Positions 43,831 through 64,000 of a stretch of 64,000 nucleotides of DNA are shown here, piece by piece. Every line of letters starts with the position of its first letter. Position 1 is the stretch's first letter. Source of the DNA: Arenicola marina (taxonomy: Eukaryota; Annelida; Polychaeta; Arenicolidae); assembly GCA_964019135.1 (NCBI GenBank), contig OZ025252.1, positions 3,240,823 through 3,304,822 on the forward strand, written 5' to 3'. The notes under the pieces are model-generated. The model worked only from the letters and a program-made list of their open reading frames with translations. It did no database searches and was not told the origin of the DNA. Both the position numbers and the translations under genes were made by a program.

Positions 43831-44731
43831 CTTACATTGCTGCATGGGTCCGGTAAGTGTCATGCGGTTGACCAAACCACGCATCGACAACGTCCGCATG
43901 AATGATTAAATACGTCACGGATTTACTATGCCGACAAAATACTACTTATCTAACAAGAAAGTGGAAAAGTAGTCGGCGTATGACAGATGACGACCACATT
44001 TGATGCACTATTTGACGGTAGGGTACATCCGTCGAATGTCGGCCACCTTTTTTCACCAGTCCCAGTTTGAGAAAGTCTCTGAAGGCAAATCACTGTGGCA
44101 ACTGGAAAAAAATAAGCCTCTGTGCCGGGGAAGACCTTTATTGACCTAGATATCTGTTTTTACGTCATTTTTATTTATTCTAAATACAGAAATCGGCGCA
44201 TGTATGTGATAAACCATGAGTGGGGTAATGCCGTCAGAGGGTGGGGCAATGTCGACCACCTCCTTTATTTTTAACAAAATGCCATAGAGAGGCCCACATA
44301 AGGCTCATATTGCAATAATAATCATAAAATCAATAATAGTAAATACAATAATGATTCAATTAATAGTAATCATGAGCTAATGCACCAGGACACTTGCATT
44401 TATAATGATGCATGCTCATCGCAAGGTTCAGCATATGTACACAAATATTATCACAATCTTTTGAAGATTGATATTATACCTTGTTTTATAAATCCACTCC
44501 TGCCAAATAATAATGACTCGTAACATAATAGAAACAAGTTCTGGGTGATTCAATCAAGTATTTGATGTGGAGGCATATGTGAACTACAAGTATAATATAG
44601 TCATTTCTTTGAACAAAATGTAACAATATAGAGCTGATTAGCATATATTGTCAGAAGTAATGTACGCTAGAATTCACACTATGATTATTTTTTTATAAGT
44701 GAGGCTTGGTATTGCCGACAGCTTGTAGTGG

Positions 44732-45355: not shown

Positions 45356-45619
45356 ATGGATACTGCACGATTGTTCTACGCAAATGCTTTGCTAAAACAA
45401 AGTAACAACTATACATTCCATCAGGAGCTACTTGACATACTTGTGGCAAATAAAAGGAACCTCAGGCACATGTACGCCTTCTATGCTGATGCCAACGGGG
45501 ACGCAACTGACATCCATCCATTCCAGACACCTGGAACACTCAACCCACGTTTGCAAATCATGTACACCCAGATGTGGAATGTAGCACACAGAACATGTGT
45601 TCTTGTGGCTAATCTATGA
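45356..45619 (+). CDS. Orphan small ORF, unknown
   Basis: 87 codons on the + strand (LLDILVANKRNLRHMYAFYA ... FQTPGTLNPRLQIMYTQMWN). The composition is plausible for a protein, but no family is recognised, no splice context is evident, and its end overlaps the end of the Tigger ORF on the other strand. Could be chance. Confidence 0.25.
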   Translation: MDTARLFYANALLKQSNNYTFHQELLDILVANKRNLRHMYAFYADANGDATDIHPFQTPGTLNPRLQIMYTQMWNVAHRTCVLVANL

Positions 45620-47473
45620 ATTTTGTTTCGACTTTTTCAGGTTTTTCTTTTTCTCAGTTTCGAGAAGTTTCAGTTCACGCTTCAATTCACGCTGTATTTT
45701 CCTTTCCTCTTTCTCTGATTCTTTCTTTTCTTTTTCGGCTGCTTTCTGGATTTTTTTGTTAATCACATCACTGCTCGTTAAGAGCCTGTGCGAAGTAATG
45801 GCATTGGACTTTTTTTTGGTCACGGCTTGGGTACTTTGCGGAAGGTCAAAGATGCTGTCAATGACGGAGGACCATTCAGTACTCAGGTCCAAATCGGATT
45901 CAGATTTCTTGGTCTCTAACAATTCCAGGCCCCCTTCCACCAGACTTTCGAGAAGCATACTTGCATTCCCATTACCCACTAGTTCATCGAACGTAACCGA
46001 AGACCGGTCGCTGACGGCAGTTGGATACGTCGCATTGGCTAGGCGACCAACAGGTCCTGACTGACCGGAGAGGGCAGCCGTTGAGGGGGCGAAGCTCCAC
46101 GTGGCCGAAGGACCAACGGATCCTGACGGACCGGGGAGGGCAGCCGTAGATGCGGCGGCACTCAAGGTGTCCGAGGGACAAACGGATCCTGACGGACCGG
46201 GGAGGGCAGCCGTAGATGGGGCGACACTCAAGGTGGCCGACGGACCAACGGATCCTGATGAACCGGGGAGGGCAGCCGTGAATGCGGCGGCATTCAAAGT
46301 GGCCGACGGACCAACGGATCCTGACGGCCCGGGGAGGGTAGCCGTAGATGCGGCGGCACTCAAGGTGGTCGAGGGACCAACGGATCCTGACGGACCGGGG
46401 AGGGCAGCCGTTGAGGGGGCGAAGCTCCAGGTGGCCGAGGGACCAAGGGATCCTGACGGACCGGGGAGGGCAGCCGTAGATGCGGCGGCACTCAAGGTGG
46501 CCGAGGGACCAAGGGATTCTGACGGACCGGGGAGGGCAGCCGTTGAGGGGGCGAAGCTCCAGGTGGCCGAGGGACCAAGGGATCCTGACGAACCGGGGAG
46601 GGCAGCCGTAGATGCGGCGGCACTCAAGGTGGCCGAGGGACCAAGGGATTCTGACGGACCGGGGAGGGCAGCCGTTGAGGGGGCGAAGCTCCAGGTGGCC
46701 GAGTGACCAAGGGATCCTGACGGACCGGGGAGGGCAGCCGTTGAGGGGGCGAAGCTCCAGGTGGCCGAGTGACCAAGGGATCCTGAGGGACCGGGGAGGG
46801 CAGCCGTTGAGGGGGCGAAGCTCCAGGTGGCCGAGGGACCCACGGGTCCTGACGGACCGCGGAGGGCAGCCGTTGAGGGGGCGAAGCTCCAGGTGGCCGA
46901 GTGACCAAGGGATCCTGAGGGACCGGGGAGGGCAGCCGTTGAGGGGGCGAAGCTCCAGGTGGCCGAGGGACCCACGGGTCCTGACGGACCGCGGAGGGCA
47001 GCCGTTGACGGCGCGGAGGCTCCCTCGGCTGGAGTATCATACGCCTGGCATGGGCGGAATAAGGCTTGTGGCAAAGCCGAGGGATTGAAGGGATAAATCC
47101 CACAAGCTTTAAAGCCACTTTTCATGTTTCCCTCTGTTACAGCTTGCTGGTATGCCTCGTTGAAGAGACTTGGCCATGAGGCTTTCGACACAACGTTGTT
47201 TGCATCCTTGGACAGGAATTCGGAGCATGCCCTATTGTATTGGGACTTGAGGGGGCCAAACACACTTTTGTCCAATGGCTGCAGATGTTGCGTCGTGTGG
47301 GGAGGAAGCGCCAAGACATGTATCCCCGCCTCCTTGGCAGCCTGCAACAGCCCGAGTGTCTCATGACTGCTGTGGCTGTCTAACACGAGCAGTTGCGGAC
47401 GCTGAGGCCCACAGTTAGGCAGGAAGACTTTGGCGAACCACTCTTCTCCCAACAAGTCCACCATCCAGGCCTA
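45614..47473 (-). pseudogene. pogo/Tigger-type DDE transposase, 3' half with a 22-residue repeat tract
   Basis: The open frame (616 codons from ATG 47,464) starts in the middle of a DDE_1 domain: LLVLDSHSSH holds the second catalytic Asp and QPLDKSVFGPLK the third-Asp region, then FKACGIYPFNPSALP. The N-terminal CENP-B/HTH part and the first catalytic Asp are missing; a LINE adjoins at about 47,600. An AG acceptor or stop (TATATAG) precedes the frame. After the DDE domain come 15 repeats of 22 residues (STAALPGPSGSLGPSATWSF type, residues about 150-480), then an acidic stretch and a basic coiled-coil tail (KEKKESEKEERKIQRELKRE) rich in Lys. Inactive as a transposase for lack of the 5' half; domestication is possible but unsupported. 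Confidence 0.8.
46040..47010 (-). repeat. 66-bp in-frame minisatellite inside the Tigger ORF
   Basis: Fifteen 66-bp units, each 22 codons, kept in frame. Units come in two kinds ending in ATWSF or ATLSA, partly alternating, showing duplication of two-unit blocks. The opposite strand is also open over this tract because the unit lacks stops there; that + frame is a shadow. Confidence 0.92.
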
Positions 47474-47599
47474 TATACTTTTCGCCGCACGTCCTATTGT
47501 AGCGTAACCTGTAAATCTAATATCAATGCAGTTGTTGGTCTAAAACCCTTTCACCGACCTATTTGTGCCTTGGAGCTTGGAGCGTCGGTAGATCAGTGT

Positions 47600-51290: not shown

Positions 51291-52540
51291 GGCCAACCTA
51301 CCAATAGTCCAGGCGATTTGTGAGAAAATACAAAATTTTGTCATAAAAGCATGAAATTCGCCACACGGCCACATAACACTCTCGGGAATATTTTTAGACA
51401 TGGAACCATGGCGAATTCAGCTTTTTGGTGAATAAGTCCTGACTCGAGCTGCTGCCATTTTGTACCGCCAGTATGGGAAATTGCATTTTGGTGAATAAGT
51501 TTACAACCAAGCATGCTAGTGCAGTGTTTTTGGTGTTGACACCCATATTTGTATGGTCAGCCATTATTGTTGTGGCATCTAAAATATCGTGCGATTGTCC
51601 TGACTCGAGCTGCTGCCATTTTGTTCCGCCATTACCGAAAAGCGCATTTGTACGCATATGTTCACAACCAAGCATGTCGGTGTGGTATTGTATGTGTAGG
51701 CACCTATATTTTCATGGTCACTGGATATTATCTTGACCAACAATATACCAAATCATCGTATTTACCAATTTACGCGCTCGTTTTACACTGACATTCTCAA
51801 AAATCACAGGTAAACGAGATTTTCATGGTCATGATATTTGATGTGGCGCTGATGGTGTACCACCAGCTACAAGAAAAACGACAGCTTAAACAGCGTGTTC
51901 GAGTGACATCTTGGCTTTATTAAAACCAAGCTATTAAACTATCTGCCATAACATTAATTTGGGAATTCCATAAAACCAGGTACGTTTTATTATTTTAGGG
52001 TAGTGAATTAAATATGTCTTATGTATCATTATAACGAAACAATTCACGACTTTGCTGTGTGACAAATACTTAAGAAACCGTTTGCGTAGATTTTACCTTG
52101 AGCTAAGGCTTTAATTGCTATCCACCTTTAGACGTCCTGGATTACAAACTTTAAGACAGGTGTAAATACATGCACGTACGTATCTCGTGCATGGCTGCTC
52201 ATAGCCTGAACACTTATCCATCAGATCATCAAACGATACGAGGAGTCGCACTCCCCATTAAGGTCACCCACCGGACGTTCCGATGAGACGATAAGAAATC
52301 TGTAACTATCTGCCACATTAAGACTAAACCCGAATAAACATGCATTCTGCCAGTGCTATATGTCGAAGAATGGACAGTTACAAAAGGCTTAACTAGTGGT
52401 ACCGTCCAGAATCTATCATTTGCTACACTCACAAGATTCATTCGTTCACACACCAAAGTCAATACACACGCATAATGCAGCTTGTTTGCTGTATATCTTG
52501 TTTGCTTGTTTGCTGCATATCTGAATAACGTAACAATAAA
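51291..52540. other. Spacer without recognisable gene
   Basis: Two direct repeats of a block with GACTCGAGCTGCTGCCATTT (about 51,441 and 51,602) followed by related sequence. Otherwise nothing recognised. Confidence 0.5.
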
Positions 52541-52547
52541 TAAGCTT

Positions 52548-55500
52548 TCAACGTTGGCAGTCACCACCGCATTTGCATAAAGCTGTGCACTTTAGCGCCG
52601 CTTTCAGACAGCGGCATGAACTTCTGCATCCTTTCGTGCACCCACAGCACAATAGTGCACGCGACGATTGACTCCAAATTGGTTCCCAGCGGACTGGGTT
52701 GGACCACCCCCAGTCACCCGGAGACGGCAGATCGGGGGCTGCCTGCAATGCCTGACCCCAGCAGTATCCGCCTTGATACACGGCTCTTCTTGTATGCTGT
52801 ATTAGAGCATCTTTGTTTCCCATGCTGCCTTCTTGCCTCTGGTGGAGAATGAAGATACCGTATCACACCCTGTGTATGCATGAAACATGGGGAGCGCCTT
52901 CGATCTATCAGGACCCAAGCAGTCAGCAATCGCGTGAGCAGATATGTATCTTATGGGTTTACCGGTTCCGAGTGCAATCCATAGTTCTTTGACGTTAAGT
53001 ACGTGAACGTGAGCAACAGCCAGAACAACAACGTCCGAGTCTACCGTTCGCAAGAGGACCGTCTCAAATCCCTGATTTACAGCATCAGCCGCATGAAGCA
53101 ACAATCTCGTATCAGCCTCTTCGTGGTTGCATGGCTCCAGTTGGCCAGTATTTCGTTCATGGTTGCATAGAACACTGGGTCCATGCGTGGTGACAACATG
53201 CTTGTCAGTAACAATCTGCGCCACATGTCTTGCAAGAAATGCAAACAGCTCAGATTTGTTTTCGTCAACGCGAAGATATTGATTCCACTTGGCCGGTAGG
53301 CAGGTGGATCCCTGCACCTTCACTCTCGTACCCATTCCCCCGCAATGTTCTCGTGTGAGGTTTCGGGCTATTTCCAATGTAACGGTCTCACACCATGTCG
53401 ACCCGACTAGCCCTTCGGATTTGACCATGGATGTATGGCAGAAAGACTTGAGACACGTATTCGTCAAACGTTTTGGCAGCAGCTGGCCTCAACATGTTGA
53501 CTACTGCTGCGCCATCTAGGATGATCACATCTGTGTTGGGGATATCATTGCCGGTATCTTCATAGTATTCGGGGCACCCCAGGAGGTCAGACTTATTTCC
53601 GAGACGCATATTTCCATTAACTGACAGTGACGGAAGGCAGGCTTGATTTTCATGCCTGAAAAATTCGGCCAAATCTCCATCGCGTGTCTGGCAGGCGATA
53701 TACAGTCGCGAAAACAATGCGCTAATTCATTCTTTAAACATGAAATTTGCATTTTGGTCCTCGATCTTTCTTTCACGACTGAAAAGAGGCAGCTTGTTTC
53801 TTTTGATGCGATCAGCGATGAGCTTCGTACCAAGAAGCCGTTCTGCTACAAAAGCATCATATTGATCTTGTCCAATCTTTTCAGCTTTTTTAACCGCATC
53901 CACCACACCTTGATCCATGATTTCCTTACTGTCTAGCTTATAGAGATCGCCACTCTCTTCCACGAATGGGTTCCCAAGGTCGTCCATGACATCAACGAGT
54001 GATCTTACCTGTTCAACGAATATCGACTGGTGTTTCGATCCCTTGTGATAATGTTTATCGTTGCAGGCTATGCGGTTACAGTCTATGGTTGCGTCAAATT
54101 CAGAGATCACTCTGGCGACTTCTGGTCCGGCAACAGTCCAGCGCCGGAGAAGCTCTGGGTTTTGGGTCAGACCAACGGCCCCGGCATCTCCCTTCACTGC
54201 AGCGTTGATCATGTGCCTGATCAATGGCCATGGATGAAAATTCTCTTCGCGTCTTCTACACCGTAAAATTGCCCGAAGAAAATTCCTTGGCTACGTCCAC
54301 GTGCACAATAGGAAGACTTGCCATATCCTGCACATGAACTGGTAGCCAACGTGCGTAATTGGTACGGTCCATGGTGAAGCACCATGGCGCGAGTTTCGTC
54401 AAGCAGTCCGTATGAAGGACAAAGTTAGCTTCTCGAAGAGATCGCACGTAAAACAGATAAGACGTTCCAGTTGAAAAGTGATGTACCAGAAGTAAAACTG
54501 TGGATGCTCCTCCTTCTTCAGGACACACCAGTCGTCGATGGAAGCGGCTTCACCAGGCGTTATTTCTGGCACATACTGGTTGTAAGCCTTGGTCAGAAGG
54601 ATGTACAGGGCAACGGCCATTACTTGGTGTGCATTTCTGGTGCGCGTGACATGTGACGCTTTCAGAAAGGACTCAGCTGTTCCCGCAGAAGCAATGTTTG
54701 CTTGGACTAGAGCTTCCACCCATCCACTCTCTTCTAACCAGTCCCCAATAATCTTCAGGCCGGCCATTTCAATATGTAGTCCGCCCAATATTATCACAAA
54801 TTTCTCCTCGCCGTGACTTGCTGGCCAGTTCCACTGTATCTGTTTGGCGATGCTGTAGAGAGGCTGATCCATAGTGAGGACAAGAACTTGACCTGGATTT
54901 AGTTCTTGCACTGCCCTCCGAACGACGTCCATAGAATGGCGTATCATGGCTACTGACTTTGACTCGTCCGGAAATAAAGGCAAAAGTGCTGAGATGGCTG
55001 GTATATATTCCTGTTTGGGTAATTTGCTCGCGTGATACGCAGACCAGGAAATGTTCTTGTTGGAATCAGTTCCTAAGATGCCGTTTCGTGCAGACTGCAG
55101 CCATCTGAAGCCAACGTGTAAAAAACAATAATATAACTTAATGACCAAGCTTGAGGATTAGGTCGTGTAATGTTACACGATAAGGCATCGTAGGATTATC
55201 GCTTTTTCATGATTATTTTGACTTTATATGCATTAATAGAACGTCTTTTTTATTGCATAATAACTAACCTGGTTTCTGCTTTCAGTGCCTCAGTTAGTGT
55301 ACGACCATTGGCCTCGATCGGACCTGGCAGTCCGGGAATTGTCGTGAATGAATCTGGGAGTTCAGCAACTCGTCTTGTCGTAGACGTCGCTTGGAGATGG
55401 CAGGGTTCCGCGCGGTCAATACCGTTGTTTCCCTTCTTGAGGTGCTGGAATAGTGACATGCCGGTCCCATGGAATGAACCAGTAGCTGATGTGGAGCTGG

Positions 55501-56885
55501 GATTATGGTCAATATTGTCAACCGCTGCTGTTGTGAACAAACTGCCCCGGAGATTGGCCGGACACACCGTGTGTACCCGGTTATACTGGTCACAAACCCT
55601 GTTTCCCATGGCCGTGGTAATACTCATTACTTTGTCGAATGAGATGAGTCCTAGCTGAAATAGAGTATCCACAAGGTCACGTCTGCGGGTCTTAGCGTGA
55701 ACTGTAAGTCCCACATAAATTAGCAAGGGCGTTTCGCGATCTTTTGCTTGATGTGTACAGCTGCTCTCAGAACGTCGTCGCATGTGGCTATTAGCCTGCA
55801 GTAGCTGGGCTATACTGAGTGCTGCTTGGGAAATACCAGCGGACTGTGACGCTATGCCCGGACCATCCCGAATCATGCCTACCAGGGCCAATAGCGATGC
55901 CGGAACAGAACTTCTCTGGCAGTCGGACTCGAAAGACCCTGTAAACATCGTCTTCATCTCAAGCATGTCCTTACGCACAATATATGCTGCTTTGATCAGA
56001 CAAATAGCTTCGTCGCCGAAATCGTCTTCAAAAGATTTATTTAATGCATGACCGATATCATTGTCGCACACTATTAGAACATTTCGCCCTTGTTTGTGGT
56101 CGCTCATTTCGGGGAACTGACGCAGTATACGAGTCTTCAACTGCGTAACCTTGAATCGATGGTAGATTCCTTGTTTGTGCAGACGAGCATAGTACAAATT
56201 CTTCAAGTCTGCTAGCTTAAAGATAGACACTGTATCTGCAGCCGCAAACTTTTCCTCCATGTAAGTTATTAGTTCTGCAAAAGCTATGCTATCCTTAACT
56301 TCAGTTTTGGCACGATCATCTCGTTTATCAAAAGATTCCGTTTTATTATAATAAGACGCCAAACATGGTGCAGGGTAATTTGCTCCGATTGCAACCATAT
56401 CTCCCGCACTGAGTTTCGCAAGCACTCTATGATCTTGTAATTTCTGTGCGCCCTGCCTGACGCGTTTGCCCAGACGAATTGTAGAAGCTGCGTGCAACGA
56501 TTTTGACGGTGACATCTTCTCACGGAAGAAACATATATCCTCGTCTGACGTCCTTGTATGTCCATCGCTCAATCGGGTATATTTTCTCGACGATGTCTTA
56601 CCTTCATCAGCATGATAAAGGGTTGTGGTTTGCCTTTTCTTTGCCCTCTTGAGTTTGGTGTTATTAAATTTCAGATGACAAGATTTATGCCATGATGGCT
56701 TGATGCTGCTGAAGTGTAATTGCCATACCCTCACCATCGTCTAGTCTGCGTAGGTCTAATGGTACCGGAAGTGTGTTCAGCAGTTGAAAATGTTGCACGT
56801 TGTCCGAGAATGTCTGGTATCCGACGCCTTTAACTTTGTCGTTGCGATCGCTTCGCGCTGGACACTGTAGGCGCTCATGTGTCAC
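52548..56885 (-). pseudogene. Broken member of a high-copy invertebrate family with PIN/FEN-like motifs and a cysteine-rich (CXC-like) tail
   Basis: Read leftward, conserved blocks appear in the order known for this family (annotated as uncharacterised in many marine invertebrates; from memory). N-terminal CPARSDRNDKVKGVGYQTF, SWHKSCHLKFNNTKL; LQDHRVLAKLSAGDMVAIGA; AVDNIDHNPSSTSATGSFHG; DRTNYARWLPVHVQDM; NAAVKGDAGAVGLTQNP; IILDGAAVVNMLRP; WNQYLRVDENKSELFAFL; CNHEEADTRLLLHAADA, VLLRTVDSDVVVLAVA, ALPMFHAYTGCDTVSSF (acidic residues like a PIN/FEN nuclease); end RAVYQGGYCWGQAL, CCGCTKGCRSSCRCLKAAL, TALCKCGGDC. One GT-AG intron (55,105-55,268) fits in phase, so it is not a retrocopy. It looks broken in roughly five places. 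Whether the family is mobile or host-derived is unresolved. Confidence 0.7.
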
Positions 56886-57650
56886 TGTTTGACAAACGAT
56901 ACCTGATCCAATCAGTTGTCTGCAACTGCCTTAACACTGTATGTTGACTTTGTGCATTCAAAGGCGTGCTTGCCATGACTTTACCATCTTCACAACTATG
57001 TCTATCGACAATGTTAATGATCACAAACTTTCAAAATTCCATTATTCACGGTTCACTAAATGCAACATAGTAGACAAACCGTCGAACGGTTGTCATGGTT
57101 ACGGTATTTTAATTGTGTTACAAACAAAGAATGGTTGGTTACTATTACCGGTTGCTGGGCTGCATGTATGTGTTGCTTAGGTACAGGAAATTTTATTGTG
57201 TATGTACTATATCCTGCAAAGCCCTGTATATAGCAACATCTAGCTCTGAAATATGTCTCTCAGAGAGGGGAGTGTTTCAGGGTTAGACCTCGGCCAAATT
57301 CCACCAACAAAATTTAGAGTGACATTTGGACTATGTAGGGTTTAAATCAGGAACAGTCATGGAGAATGAGTTATTAGCTTTCGTGGAAATTGGGGCCTGA
57401 ACGGATATGCTAGCGTATAACCTATTGCAGGACCAGAAGTCTATTACTATAGAGCAAATATAAAGTCAGTCATAAATGCCGTAGACACACGTTTTGGCCC
57501 ATATTTTCCGCGAATTTGCCTCGATCACTCTCAAAACCACTGACGTGAGAAAGCAATACTAGACCATTTTAATGATACTAAACTTACGTTTGTACTGCGA
57601 TGTTATCCTTTTTTAAGACACAAACAATATTTCTTCATGCTGACACTCCA
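56886..57650. other. Spacer without recognisable gene
   Basis: AT-rich sequence between the pseudogene and the first composite-element copy; nothing recognised on either strand. Confidence 0.5.
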
Positions 57651-57654
57651 TTGG

Positions 57655-57870
57655 TTTGTGTGCACCGTTTCGTCTTGTATCTCGAGGGGTTAGGGGCTCC
57701 ATTGCGCCCAGACTTGAGCTCAAGTCATTTATGTCACCCAAAACGTTGTTTTAATCCCGATCACCTGGTGCTGGAGCCTATCGGTGTTAATAACCAGAGA
57801 AAAACATGCAAATGTGAGTTACGATGTTTTGGCCATGGCGTCAAATATGTTTATTTCAGTGAGTGCTTCG
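57655..57870 (+). pseudogene. His-Cys-box (I-PpoI-like) nuclease, C-terminal half, element copy 1
   Basis: Reads CVHRFVLYLEGLGAPL, SSSHLCHPKRCFNPDHLVLE and NNQRKTCKCELRCFGHG, close to the zinc-binding loop of His-Cys-box homing endonucleases (I-PpoI has SHLCHNTRCHNPLHL with N--R--C downstream; PF05551-type). The N-terminal half present in copy 2 is absent: similarity between the copies starts abruptly at 57,655 / 61,660. About 100 bp separate its end from the convergent transposase. Confidence 0.75.
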
Positions 57871-57963
57871 CACATTTTCTTTCAGACATTTTAGCCATTA
57901 TAATTGTTTATGTATTGGTTGTTTTAATGGATGCTAGCGCATGATTACGTAGCTATGGATTAG

Positions 57964-59795
57964 CTAATTACAAATGTTAATCCCGTAAGGGTGATCATTT
58001 GTTGGATGCATGCTAGCTGTGGAGTAGGCCGAGTCTCTCGCACATGCTGCTTTTTTTTTGTACGCGTTCCTTTTACGGCGACACCTAGCTTCTGTTGTAC
58101 GGTGGATATTTGCGTTATACTCCTCTCGTACCTGCATTTTTCTCAATGTCTTATACCCAGGCCCGTTTCCTGTTAGTTCTACGCCAGCGGCTTTGGATAG
58201 TCTAATCGTTGCTTCGGAAGAACCCAGGGAATTTACTAGAACGCGCACATGAGCACGGCCGAACACATTTCTGCTAAAGGTGTTTGATTTAGGGACTCCC
58301 TTAAACATTGTACGGTGGCTAGCTTCAGCCTTGTTAGTGTTGCTAACTGTACGCTGTCTTTCAACCATAGCCTGACTCAGCTTATAATCAATAGCCTGTT
58401 CTAAAAGAGCTTTGTCTGCTAAGGTAGGGTTAAAATAACGACCCCCGGCAAATGGCGTGGATGTTTAATATGTCGTTTGTTACATGCTAATGAGTGTTTA
58501 TGACAAAGCGAATGATCACCTGAAAAACAGACAATTATGGCCGATGCTATATCTTTAAGGGATATTTTAAGTTGTTCAGTCGATGAACTTTGCTCTTGGG
58601 CCATGGCTAGTTCTGCCGAGCTTCGTTTCACCAATGCATCCGCGAGGTCGTATACGAATGCCTGTCGCCGTTTGCCGTTTTTGCCACACATTTGTTCACT
58701 TCATTTTAAACCTATTATGCACTTCCGCCAGTTACACGATACGTGGATGGTACAATCTTGTTTGTCTACCCCAGAAGTGCAATCTAGTGATTGTAGTGCG
58801 TCTCGAACGCCACTAATTAACTTGCCGTCATTATCAGTGGTGGCTAATTTTGGAATGACGGATGAATCGGAACATAGTGTTAACGTGGCGCGTCGTGCGA
58901 GTTCTCTTTCAGCATTGCCAATAGGTTCGTGGCGCGGATAATTTCGAGAGCATTCACCAGAGTGGCCTTGTCCTAAAGTGGAACAACGTTTACATAATTT
59001 GTTTGCAATACTGTATGAAACTATCATCTGCTTAGGTTTTTCGCTTTCTATTACTGGACAGAATGCCTGTGTAGATGGTTGTCCTCTAGAACACCCCTTT
59101 AGAGGATTATTATAGCTGACGTCCGCTTGTATATTGATTGCCGCTGGCTGTCCCGGCTGTACTTCGCCAGTTTATGTTTCAGCTGCCTCAAGCTGTGTCT
59201 GTTTTCAAGCATAACGCTTTTGCTTGTCTCAACAGACATATCAGAGATCTTTTTTGCAGCCCTATGCAAGGTGTTGTCACAGAGCGTCGGGATGTCTAGG
59301 GTGGCTACAATCTCTCTAACGACATTTACTCCGACCCAGGTTTTAATCAGTTCATCATCCCAATTATTAGTCTCAAATTCACCCCATCCCGGTCCGCGTC
59401 CCTCAATCTCGGTCATGTTATGTAACGGGGCCGGAGAGGTGGAGTGATGGCAATGTGCACACTCTAACGTCTGTGTGCAACAGAGGCCTTTAGTTTTGTC
59501 TTGGGCGGGAAATCTGAAATCTGTGCTTAATCTGTCTTGTTGCGGATACATGTTGGTCGTTCCTTAGTGCTGGTCGTAGCTTGTGTGGAAGAATGACTCC
59601 ACCGGTCGTAGCCAGTTTAGCCAGACTGGCCGGAATGCGCCTTATTGGACTATTTTGGGGAGATTCATACTCGCTGGCTGCTACATATCCATCGTTTTCA
59701 AGCGATTTTTTTAAACTGGCCGTTATGCCATTATTGATTTTCTTTAAAGCCTTTCGACGCAACAATAAACCCTTGCTTTTATAATATTTAGGCAT
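57964..59795 (-). pseudogene. Mutator/Kolobok-like transposase, element copy 1
   Basis: N-terminus MPKYYKSKGLLLRRKALKKI (59,795 leftward). Second frame (59,551-59,099): zinc-knuckle-like CCTQTLECAHCHH, then NVVREIVATLDIPTLCDNTL. Third frame: ADVSYNNPLKGCSRG, LCKRCSTLGQGHSGECSRNY, ATTDNDGK (DGDSK-like acidic motif), CTIHVSCNWRKCIIGLK, DHSLCHKH; last (58,368-57,964): NKAEASHRTMFKGVPK, SNTFSRNVFGRAHVRV. Order and spacing match the Mutator-like transposase domain (PF20700) seen in invertebrates. Frame changes at about 59,520 and 59,170 are shared with copy 2; a further break near 58,430 (HLPGG to HLPGV) is private to copy 1. Confidence 0.8.
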
Positions 59796-59941
59796 GTTAT
59801 TTTTATGCTGAAAAACTTAAACTCACCAAGTCAGCAAACGACCGATACAGGGCGAGCGGGTAAGATCAGTGGGCAGCAGTCGCTTCTCACCAAAATCCGG
59901 AGATTCTGAATGGAAGACAATACTTCTTGAATACTGGTTTC

Positions 59942-60027
59942 GGTTAAGACAATAGCATCTCGTGTAGCTATGTGAACCGGTGCCGGTTAAGACAATAGCA
60001 TCTCGTGTAGCTATGTGAACCGGTGCC
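59942..60027. repeat. 43-bp direct duplication at the right end of element copy 1
   Basis: GGTTAAGACAATAGCATCTC...GTGAACCGGTGCC occurs twice (59,942 and 59,985). Copy 2 has it once before the window ends. Confidence 0.88.
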
Positions 60028-60119
60028 AAGGTAGCGTTTTAGTCTGTTCTGTCACCAGTTGAGTGGAAATAATGCTATGTACATTGGCGTTTATCGGTAT
60101 GCGAACGTTGTGCTGCGTA

Positions 60120-60385
60120 AACCCTAAGACTAACCCTGGCGCGATTGAACTGCTACCAGGAAGGTTAAGGTTATGGTTAGGTCAGGGTCAGGGTTATGGT
60201 TAGGGTTAGGGTTTAGTTAGGCTTAGGGGGGTTAAGTGCTAACGCCCACTGGACGCCTTACGAGGCTCGGCGACAGAACTGACATGGGACCGAACAATAA
60301 GATCAGTTGAGTTTCTTTTGGCTGACGCCCCCCATCGCGGCTCCGCGTTGCGACAGGACATGTTCTAGGGTTAGGGTTACCTCTA
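60120..60385. repeat. Short degenerate telomere-like (TTAGGG) tracts
   Basis: GGTTAGGGTTAGGGTTTAG near 60,198-60,216 with degenerate GGTTATGGTTAGG neighbours, and GGGTTAGGGTTA near 60,367. Too short and impure for a chromosome end; interstitial. Confidence 0.7.
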
Positions 60386-60604
60386 TTTATCGGTGATCGG
60401 TCGGCGTGCCATCGACATTTCAGCCAATCAATCAGACCAAAAAAGCACTTCAGAACGATGCACCGATGATCATTAACATGAACTACTTGACCGCCGCGCA
60501 ACGAATCGCGTCCAGTGAGCGTTGGCCACCGCGTCGCCTGGGTCCCGCCGCCGCTCGGTTCCGCCGCCGCCCCGCAAACCGCGTCCATTGGGCGTCAGCA
60601 CTAA
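60235..60604. mobile_element. Small MITE, possibly PIF/Harbinger type
   Basis: Inverted ends GTGCTAACGCCCACTGGACG and (right end, inverted) GTGCTGACGCCCAATGGACG, flanked by TAA on both sides, the 3-bp TWA target typical of PIF/Harbinger. About 370 bp, GC-rich right half, no gene. Confidence 0.65.
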
Positions 60605-61473
60605 GGCATATGCATTACGTCGTGTAACTGCGCCGTCGCTTTTCTATATATGTTCGACAAACTTTGCAGCATAACTGGGAATTGTATCTTCTGTTGAGGA
60701 TTTTTATTGCGGGTTGAAAAGAGCGAACATTTTATCTGCTTAAGGTCACACACCAATAGGTCGTGCGTAGAAAAGTATATACCGTCAAGTAGTGCCTAAA
60801 ATATGATGGTATATCAGGGTAATATGGGTAATGGTTGTTTCTTTCTTTGTGTATATTGTTTGTTTTTTTACTAATGTTTGGCCAGATTACTGCCTGTCGG
60901 ATTAATCTGTGGCGTAGTTAATCATGATTGCGGACGTTACGGGTGCGTGGTTCGGTCGACCTCATCACATGCTAGGGGGGGGGGGGGGTCATACTATGAG
61001 CTGTAGCTAAAAATATCGCACGTGAACCTGTGTTCTGTTTGTTTTTAAAATAAAGTTTGATACTTGCTCTATAATTTCCTATGGCCCATATAGTCGAACA
61101 TGGTTACCGATTTTTTTCTAGCATGGGGTTGAAAATTTGTGTTTTTGCATTACCTAACATGGGGATGGTTTCTATTGGTGTGTAACCTTAAGATAGTCTC
61201 GCCGCAATGCCGTATGCTTATGCAAAATGTGTTTTAGTAACAGTTTAATTTATTTTGTGCCATATATTATTTGATAAAAGTATTCTAAACAATGTTCTTT
61301 GTCTTTTAGCATCGACAAATTATTTAAAACGTCGCATGGTGTCTGCAGTGGCGCCATCTAGCGGGGATGAGAGGTTGCTTAGTTCACGCTGTTATTGGTG
61401 CGCGGTTGCGACAGTGGCCAGGCTCGTTGTCTTTGTGATGATTTATCTCGAATACATAATTAACTTTGTTGAT
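60605..61473. other. Spacer before element copy 2
   Basis: AT-rich, G-run at 60,976-60,988, nothing recognised. The left terminus of element copy 2 may lie here but no inverted match to the right end of copy 1 was found by eye. Confidence 0.45.
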
Positions 61474-61872
61474 ATGAATATTTTTAATCAGCAGCTCGGC
61501 GAGGGTGATCTCCTTCGTTTTAAACAGCGATTGAGTTCAAAAACGTTCGGTGTAAAAACACTGGGGTGCCATTTATGGCTTGGCGCCATTGATGTTAAAG
61601 GGTATGGAAAAATGAGGGTGAGGGTAAAAGTGGGTTTGGAGATTTTAACGCGATTAGTTTTTGTGTGCACCGTTTTGTCTTGTATCTCGAGGGGTTAGGG
61701 GCTCCATTGCACCCAGACTTGAGTTCAAGTCATTTATGTCACCAAAAACGTTGTTTTAATCCCGATCACCTGGTGCTGGAGGCTATCGGTGTTAATAACC
61801 AGAGAAAAACCTGTCAATCTGAGTTACGATGTTTTGGCCATGGCAGTGGCGTCAAATTATGTTTATTTCAGT
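61474..61872 (+). pseudogene. His-Cys-box (I-PpoI-like) nuclease, element copy 2, nearly full length
   Basis: Starts plausibly at ATG 61,474 (MNIFNQQLGEGDLLRFKQRL), then GCHLWLGAIDVKGYGKMRVR (C--W-G---GYG core of the domain). After a frame change near 61,640 it continues with VHRFVLYLEGLGAPLHPD, SSSHLCHQKRCFNPDHLVLE, NNQRKTCQSELRCFGHG, stop at about 61,872. Zinc ligands Cys, His and the catalytic-type His/Asn of the His-Me finger are present. By family these nucleases cut DNA and include homing endonucleases; its role here is unknown. The single frame change suggests a recent pseudogene or a splice not resolved. Confidence 0.78.
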
Positions 61873-64000
61873 GAGTGCTTCGCACATTTTCTTTCAGACG
61901 TTTTAGCCATTATAATTGTTTATGTATTGGTTGTTTTAATGGATGCTAGCGCATGATTACGTAGCTATGGATTAGCTAATTACAAATGTTAATCCCGTAA
62001 GGGTGATCATTTGTTGGATGCATGCTAGCTGTGGAGTAGGCCGAGTCTCTCGCACATGCTCCTTTTTTTTTTTTTACGTGTTCCTTTTACAGCGACGCCT
62101 AGCTTCTGTTGTACGGTGGGTATTTGCGTTATACTCTCGTACCTGTATTTTTCTCAATGTGTCATACCCAGGCCCGTTTCCTGTTAGTTCTACGCCAGCG
62201 GCTTTGGATAGTCTAATCGTTGCTTCGGAAGAACCCAGGGAATTTACTAGAACGCGCACATGAGCGTGGCCGAACACATTTCTGCTAAAGGTGTTTGATT
62301 TAGGGACTCCCTTAAAAATTGTACGGTGGATAGCTTCAGCCTTGTTAGTGTTGCTAACTGTACGCTGTCTTTCAACCATAGCAGGACTCAGCTTATAATC
62401 AATAGCCTGTTCTAAAAGAGCTTTGTCTGCTAAGGTAGGGTTTAGGTAACGACCCCCCGGCAAATGGCGTGGATGTTTAATATGTCGTTTGTTACATGCT
62501 GATGGGTGTTTATGACAGAGCGAATGATCACCTGAAAAACAGGCAATTACGGCCGATGCTATATCTTTAAGGGAAGTTTTAAGTTGTTCAGTCGATGAAC
62601 TTTGCCCTTGGGCCATGGCTAGTTCTGCCGAGCATCGTTTCACCAATGCATCCGCGAGGTCGTATACGAATACCTGTCGCCGTTTGCCGTTTTGGCCACA
62701 CATTTGTTCACTCAATTTTAAACCTATTATGCGCTTCCGCCAGTTACGCGATACGTGGATGGTACAATCTTGTTTGTCTACCCCAGAAATGCAATCTAGT
62801 GATTGTAGTGCGTCTCGAACGCCACTAATTACCTTGCCGTCATTATCGGTGGTGGCTAATTTTGGAATGACGGATGAATCGGAACATAGTGTTAACGTGG
62901 CGCGTCGTGCGAGTTCTCTTTCAGCATTGCCAATAGGTTCGTGGCGCGGATAATTTCGAGAGCATTCACCAGAGTGGCCTTGTCCTAAAGTGGAACAACG
63001 TTTACATAATTTGTTTGCAATACTGTATGAAACTACCATCTGCTTAGGTGTTTCGCTTTCTATTACTGGACAGAATGCCTGTGTAGATGGTTGTCCTCTA
63101 GAACACCCCTTTAGAGGATTATTATAGCTGACATCCGCTTGCCTACTTATTGCCGCTGGCTATCCCGGCTGTACTTCCCCAGATAATTATTTCAGCTGCC
63201 TCAAGCTGTGTCTGTTTTCAAGCAAAACGCTTTTGCTTGTCTCAACAGACATATCAGAGATCTTTTTTGCAGCCCTGTGCAAGGTGTTGTCACAGAGCGT
63301 CGGGATGTCTAGGGTGGCTACAATCTCTCTAACGACATTTACTCCGACCCCGGTTTTCATCAGTTCATCATGCCAATTATTAGTCTCAAATTCACCCCAT
63401 CCCGGTCCGCGTCCCTCAATCTCGGTCATGTTATGTAACGGGGCCGGAGAGGTGGAGTGATGGCAATGTGTACACTCTAACGTCTGTGTGCAACAGAGGC
63501 CTTTAGTTTTGTCTTGGGCGGGAAATCTGAAATCTGTGCTTAATCTGTCTTGTTGCGGATACATGTTGGTCGTTTCTTAGTGCTGGTCGTATCTTGTGTG
63601 GAAGAATGACTCCACGGGTCGTAGCCAGTTTAGCAAGACTGGCCGGAATGCGCCTTATTGGACTATTTTGGGGAGATTCATACTCGCTGGCTGCTACATA
63701 TCCATCGTTTTCAAGCGATTTTTTTAAACTGGCCGTTATGCCATTATAGATTTTCTTTAAAGCCTTTCGACGCAACAATAAACCCTTGCTTTTATAATAT
63801 TTAGGCATGTTATTTTTATGCTGAAAAACTTAAACTCACCAAGTCAGCAAACGACCGATACAGGGCGAGCGGGTAAGATCAGTGGGCAGCAGTCGCTTCT
63901 CACCAAAATCCGGAGATTCTGAATGGAAGACAATACTTCTTGAATACTGGTTTCGGTTAAGACAATAGCATCTCGTGTAGCTATGTGAACCGGTGCCAAG
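61660..64000. repeat. Second copy of a >2.3-kb direct duplication (first copy 57,655-60,030)
   Basis: Sequence from TTTGTGTGCACCG (57,655 and 61,660) to GTGAACCGGTGCCAAG (60,030 and 64,000) is shared in the same orientation with few differences (about 96% identical by eye), offset about 4.0 kb. The second copy is cut by the window end and may continue. Confidence 0.9.
62074..63808 (-). pseudogene. Mutator/Kolobok-like transposase, element copy 2
   Basis: Same gene as in copy 1 with a longer intact core: the frame from 63,165 to 62,074 runs ADVSYNNPLKGCSRG, LCKRCSTLGQGHSGECSRNY, ATTDNDGK, DCTIHVSRNWRKRIIGLKLS, QVFVYDLADALVKR, HPRHLPGGRYLNPTLADKAL, NKAEAIHRTIFKGVPKSNTF, SRNVFGHAHVRVLVNSLGSS, ELTGNGPGYDTLRK. 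Upstream frames: 63,808-63,503 (MPKYYKSKG start) and 63,564-63,187 (CCTQTLECTHCHH zinc-like cluster, VNVVREIVATLDIP). Frame changes near 63,530 and 63,170 are at the same places as in copy 1. A TAG stop precedes ADVSYNN in frame. Convergent with the nuclease gene about 0.2 kb away. Confidence 0.82.

Follow-up and report, generated by a model that had tools for sequence, protein, structure and literature searches.

The window considered here is a stretch of 64,000 nucleotides from the polychaete Arenicola marina (C5:3240823-3304822, on contig OZ025252.1) in an 867-Mb assembly of 762 contigs. The mitochondrial contig of this assembly, in invertebrate code 5, carries nad3, nad2, cox1, cox2 and cox3 in that order (cox1 by Pfam, the others named by eye), an arrangement typical of annelids. 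Its right-hand end is almost certainly occupied by a decayed multimer of the DNA transposon KolobokP, with the structure (INT-LTDR)4, where INT stands for the internal region and LTDR for the long terminal direct repeat. In 2022 Kojima and Bao introduced KolobokP as an element carrying the same two genes, a Kolobok transposase and a nuclease, in convergent orientation (PMC9587614). What we describe is a further family of KolobokP and not a new kind of element, the two-nuclease type having been published already.

Results

The sequence-only reading of this DNA had placed a His-Cys-box nuclease on the plus strand tail to tail with a PF20700-type transposase on the minus strand in each of two copies, and tblastn and Pfam searches bear out both positions and strands. 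In both copies the I-PpoI-like nuclease and the transposase converge across a gap of about 0.1 kb by tblastn (in copy 2, from the nuclease end at 61868 to the transposase edge at 61982). PF05551 is matched over window positions 61665-61874 with 52.2 bits (cut-off 27) and PF20700 over 62074-63039 with 83.6 bits (cut-off 26.5). That the two genes had been copied together was also correct: by self-comparison, the tandem array has four units, of which the window copies are the first and second; it spans C5:3298478-3313809 plus an interrupted last repeat. The end of the window therefore cuts through the array. The long direct terminal repeats had gone unremarked in the earlier reading and were found here.

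Taken alone, the window copies amount to one duplication, and would fit the view that a single chance event brought two unrelated genes together and that one tandem duplication then copied them both. Genome-wide profile searches returned 30 matches to PF20700 and 20 to PF05551, 18 of the latter over the cut-off. Eight of these 18 have a convergent PF20700 match 622 to 732 bp away, at five separate loci: the C5 array, with four, and C3:9.25M, C4:1.487M, C7:1.707M and C3:41.37M, with one each. With the same convergent pair at these four further places, the pairing cannot be put down to one event; the duplication seen by the sequence-only reading holds for the window copies, not for the genome. 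Judged by sequence, all five loci are members of one family, the longest aligned stretch for each pair of loci being 90.6 to 95.7% identical. A chance joining is hardly credible in view of these independent loci, of the termini that the pair shares at C4, and of the publication of the same gene pair for many animal families (PMC9587614).

The C4 copy (C4:1.487M) shows the ends of the element. Both genes are enclosed by direct repeats of 469 and 473 bp, for a total of 4,572 bp; the LTDR has 16-bp inverted tips (GGTTACACACCAATAG), and a 4-bp duplication, TTCA, flanks the element on both outer sides. Neighbouring genes at independent loci, with common termini and a target duplication, were what the earlier reading had looked to for confirmation; the neighbouring pair was found at the five loci, and termini and duplication enclosing both genes at C4. 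The idea of a mobile element with two nucleases thus stood as far as its structure goes, although the type was not new; the target breaks ascribed to the nuclease stay conjectural, and the published account of KolobokP finds no strong target specificity (PMC9587614).

Transposase copies whose termini exclude the nuclease, which the earlier reading had named as refuting the pairing, were not seen among the loci examined. When the C4 transposase was compared with 25 genomic stretches, covering the PF20700 places other than C7:3.179M, C11:23.98M and C1:6.953M, seven places matched and five of them had the nuclease. The copy at C5:2.39M lacks the nuclease but is a deleted copy retaining a repeat end, and at C4:7.43M the sequence breaks off within the transposase. 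No match at E 0.001 was obtained at the PF20700 places C9:15.41M, C6:26.38M, C10:6.27M, C7:26.37M, C4:17.72M, C1:6.89M, C20:13.78M and C3:17.787M.

The C4 transposase has an open frame over 669 aa, in which the motifs read by eye are D (ADVSY), CCHC (LCKRC...GHSGEC), D (TTDND), CTIH and E (TAEAIH). These point to a Kolobok-type DDE transposase with the C/DxxH signature and a CCHC zinc finger. The best match of the nuclease in the Protein Data Bank (PDB) is I-PpoI (E 0.0011 with a single sequence, E 0.0002 with a profile of five), and residues S97, H98, H110, E114 and N119 of I-PpoI, the catalytic His and Asn included, are aligned in the C4 nuclease. The nuclease at C3:9.25M has a frame that stays open for 132 aa from its first Met. 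Pairwise dN/dS values of the nuclease, with few sites underlying them, were 0.165 (C4/C3:9.25M), 0.226 (C4/C7) and 0.259 (C3:9.25M/C7). Against three nuclease copies on C20 they were 0.168-0.173 for C4 and 0.20-0.235 for C3:9.25M and C7; within C20, two pairs gave 0.29 and 0.49 from a handful of changes and the third was undefined. Pairs with the diverged C3:17.795M nuclease were saturated, except one at 0.18.

The features of the array within the window are as follows.

57656..60743 (-): INT of array unit 1, right-end TTAA included, left repeat and nuclease start lost (array self-comparison; homology to the other units begins at C5:3298478)
57645..57839 (+): His-Cys-box (I-PpoI-like) nuclease fragment of unit 1, N-terminal part missing (tblastn with C4 nuclease, 92% over 65 aa; the match starts a few residues before the homology edge of the unit)
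57970..59865 (-): Kolobok-type DDE transposase of unit 1, broken, with a 110-bp deletion common to all units (tblastn with C4 transposase; indel table)
60740..60743 (no strand): TTAA between INT and LTDR (junction table)
60744..61187 (no strand): 444-bp LTDR separating unit 1 from unit 2, tips GG...CC (junction table; window comparison)
60744..60759 (+): transposase-side inverted tip of the LTDR, 16 bp, differing from GGTTACACACCAATAG at one position (junction table)
61172..61187 (-): nuclease-side inverted tip of the LTDR, 16 bp (junction table)
61188..61191 (no strand): TTAA between LTDR and INT of unit 2 (junction table)
61188..64000 (no strand): INT of unit 2, running beyond the window end, with units 3 and 4 next, to C5:3313809 (array self-comparison)
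61558..61868 (+): His-Cys-box nuclease of unit 2, frameshifted (tblastn; PF05551; shared 2-bp insertion)
61982..63878 (-): Kolobok-type DDE transposase of unit 2, broken (tblastn; PF20700)

The LTDRs on C5 measure 443, 444 and 446 bp, and those of C4 and C5 alike end in GG...CC, in keeping with the 5'-RR ... YY-3' feature. An insert of about 2 kb splits the last LTDR of the array, whose outer tip lies near C5:3315882. This insert (C5:3313809-3315777) has inverted ends (TCATAGAAATGG, read by eye) and a possible 2-bp duplication, and is probably a nested transposon.

The transposase is broken in both window copies, each matching across several frames (tblastn and indel table); the start of the nuclease is absent from copy 1, and in copy 2 the gene is frameshifted and matches in two frames. 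Over their aligned internal regions the four units agree at 97.0 to 98.9%, and they have lesions in common. All four carry the 110-bp transposase deletion relative to C4; the codons it removes are present in the C3:9.25M, C7 and C4:7.43M copies. An 8-bp insertion in all four units and a 2-bp insertion that shifts the nuclease frame in units 2-4 are both absent from C4, C3:9.25M, C7 and C3:41.37M (unit 1 lacks the place of the latter). Because these lesions are common to the units, the array would most simply have multiplied from one copy in which both genes were already broken; gene conversion could also have spread them.

Solo LTDRs with duplications and (LTDR-INT)n multimers are both present in the genome. 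The search with the LTDR listed 41 matches, array copies included, with 40 of 1149 candidates scored. At 18 further loci, chosen from the best-scoring of those 41, duplications were counted by eye: ten have an exact 4-bp duplication, TNNA in every case, three agree at three of four bases, three are INT-like on one side and two are decayed. LTDR tips preceded by TTAA (at most two mismatches in 24 bases) number 556 on the nuclease side and 466 on the transposase side genome-wide, and the reversed control for this search of the genome gave zero matches. Spacing, read from the first 100 listed of each tip type, is near 1.04-1.06 kb in several runs among the matches listed. Long runs with this spacing lie at C7:27172335-27196628 (21 junctions among the matches listed, over C7:27172335-27196042), C5:11921009-11933193 (12, likewise) and C3:20729173-20738856. 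Units near 1.04 kb are too short for both genes, so these runs are presumably non-autonomous KolobokP multimers; the sole multimer of the short-unit type that was read, at C9:6.05M, has spacings of 1.06 and 1.63 kb.

Of the remaining ten among the 18 PF05551 matches, nine fall within two C20 tandem arrays; the tenth is a diverged copy at C3:17.795M. The C20 arrays (C20:31304000-31313900 and C20:31387000-31396900) have a unit near 1.75 kb and a nuclease fragment about 76% identical to that of KolobokP, with His at the N119 position as read from the alignment. A segment of the element about 400 bp long, made up of the nuclease and some 5' flank, has seven matches in the two arrays; neither the LTDR nor the transposase matched in either. 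We considered these arrays as KolobokP multimers and set the idea aside, treating them as a captured fragment. No Rfam family reached threshold in C20:31304000-31313900, and at the edge of the array lies an open frame with a weak resemblance to a GDSL lipase that falls short of the cut-off (E 0.0012). Another C20 tandem array, C20:28228900-28233200, has an LTDR-like piece and, on the opposite strand, a diverged LTDR-like piece (about 65-69%); it shares nothing with C20:31304000-31313900 at E 1e-4. The diverged nuclease relative at C3:17794947-17795252 is 56% identical. No KolobokP transposase was found beside it in the stretch examined, which reaches just 1.6 kb past it on the expected side; this is too short for the pairing there to be judged.

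Elsewhere in the window, a 616-aa open frame at 45614-47464 (-) matches DDE_1 (PF03184, E 4.9e-16); we take it to be a pogo/Tigger-type transposase. Short LTDR-like stretches lie at 47472-47499 and 43858-43923. At 52229-56737 (-), adjoining the array, several open frames follow one another, the longest of 495 aa; the four that were scanned gave no Pfam match over the cut-off.

Discussion

These results suggest how the element might move and multiply. Structurally complete members have the order LTDR-INT-LTDR, with INT encoding the Kolobok DDE transposase and the convergent, I-PpoI-related His-Cys-box nuclease. As the tips and duplications suggest, the transposase would act through the 16-bp inverted tips to move the element or a lone LTDR into 4-bp TNNA targets. 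The arrays, for their part, are what one would expect if recombination between direct repeats gained or lost LTDR-INT units. Growth of the window array might have been by passive unequal exchange, or might have been aided by the nuclease of another copy.

Direct repeats are by themselves sufficient for unequal exchange. Passive growth by this route, with the nuclease serving another step such as the processing of excised circles, has in our estimate an even chance of being correct. It agrees with an array expansion that postdates the lesions; by itself, however, it leaves the constraint on the nuclease in the lineage unexplained.

The authors of KolobokP proposed transposition combined with unequal crossover that the nuclease itself would initiate (PMC9587614). 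On this model the LTDR or the LTDR/INT junction would be cut, in trans for the window array. Arrays are indeed common, as in the C7 and C5 runs of short units, and the dN/dS values of the nuclease, compared across separate copies, lie well below 1. Against this, the frameshift in units 2-4 means that the window array needed no nuclease of its own, which suggests that a KolobokP array can expand even when none of its units has a working nuclease, and one published family has TATA instead of TTAA at the INT ends (PMC9587614). We rate nuclease-driven growth as possible, somewhat short of even.

The junction itself offered a further argument for cutting. The nuclease-side INT/LTDR junction, CTATCTTAAGGTTAC, agrees with the I-PpoI site in ribosomal DNA (rDNA), CTCTCTTAAGGTAGC (in print in PMC6294500), at 12 of 15 positions, the best 15-base match in the C4 element. 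As a control, 60 LTDR tips matching TTAA plus tip exactly were drawn from the listed matches (40 and 20); 18 INT-edge-like flanks were set aside and 42 kept, not all of them independent, since some are paired ends of a single repeat. Twelve or more positions agreed in 2 of these 42 unrelated flanks and 11 or more in 5. Because some unrelated flanks match equally well, the resemblance is not evidence, and it lends no support to a retained I-PpoI-like site. The genome count of CTNTCTTAAGGTNNC was 50, versus 172 for the reversed control, and so showed no enrichment. It seems highly improbable that the INT/LTDR junction of the element is an I-PpoI-like rDNA site to which the KolobokP nuclease still responds, such that self-cutting and repair against the next repeat would add a unit, in trans for broken and non-autonomous copies.

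Several points weigh against the assignment to KolobokP. The left end of the array is truncated and its own target duplication unreadable; both genes are intact in no copy examined; and there are nuclease relatives for which no transposase was found, in the two C20 arrays (9 of the 18 matches) and at C3:17.795M. The class, moreover, is assigned from features tested against the published description and would not amount to descent established by a tree.

With these reservations, the KolobokP reading places the two-nuclease transposon, a type already published, in a genome that is well assembled and has many lone repeats as well as long arrays, and that can therefore be used to test the role of a captured homing nuclease. 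It also has clear counterparts among known systems. KolobokE, KolobokD, Kol0 and KolobokH likewise combine a Kolobok transposase with an accessory protein; that protein is of another kind, and in the published account LTDRs are described for KolobokP only (PMC9587614). The nuclease has the same catalytic core as I-PpoI (PDB 1A73), through the five aligned residues named above; it differs in residing in a DNA transposon, not in a group I intron, and just about 33 residues align by sequence. The closest likeness is to KolobokP itself, published from seven animal phyla, Annelida among them, with LTDRs near 450 or 660 bp that also occur singly, and with multimers (PMC9587614). The Arenicola family shares with it an INT encoding a Kolobok DDE transposase and, convergent to it, a His-Me finger nuclease, flanking LTDRs of about 450 bp with short inverted tips and RR/YY ends, and the occurrence of both solo repeats and multimers; the C4 monomer of 4,572 bp falls within the 4,022-4,748 bp given for KolobokP of the oyster (PMC9587614). 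It departs from the published description in that the units of one array have gene-breaking lesions in common, and in that the exact target duplications seen are TNNA.

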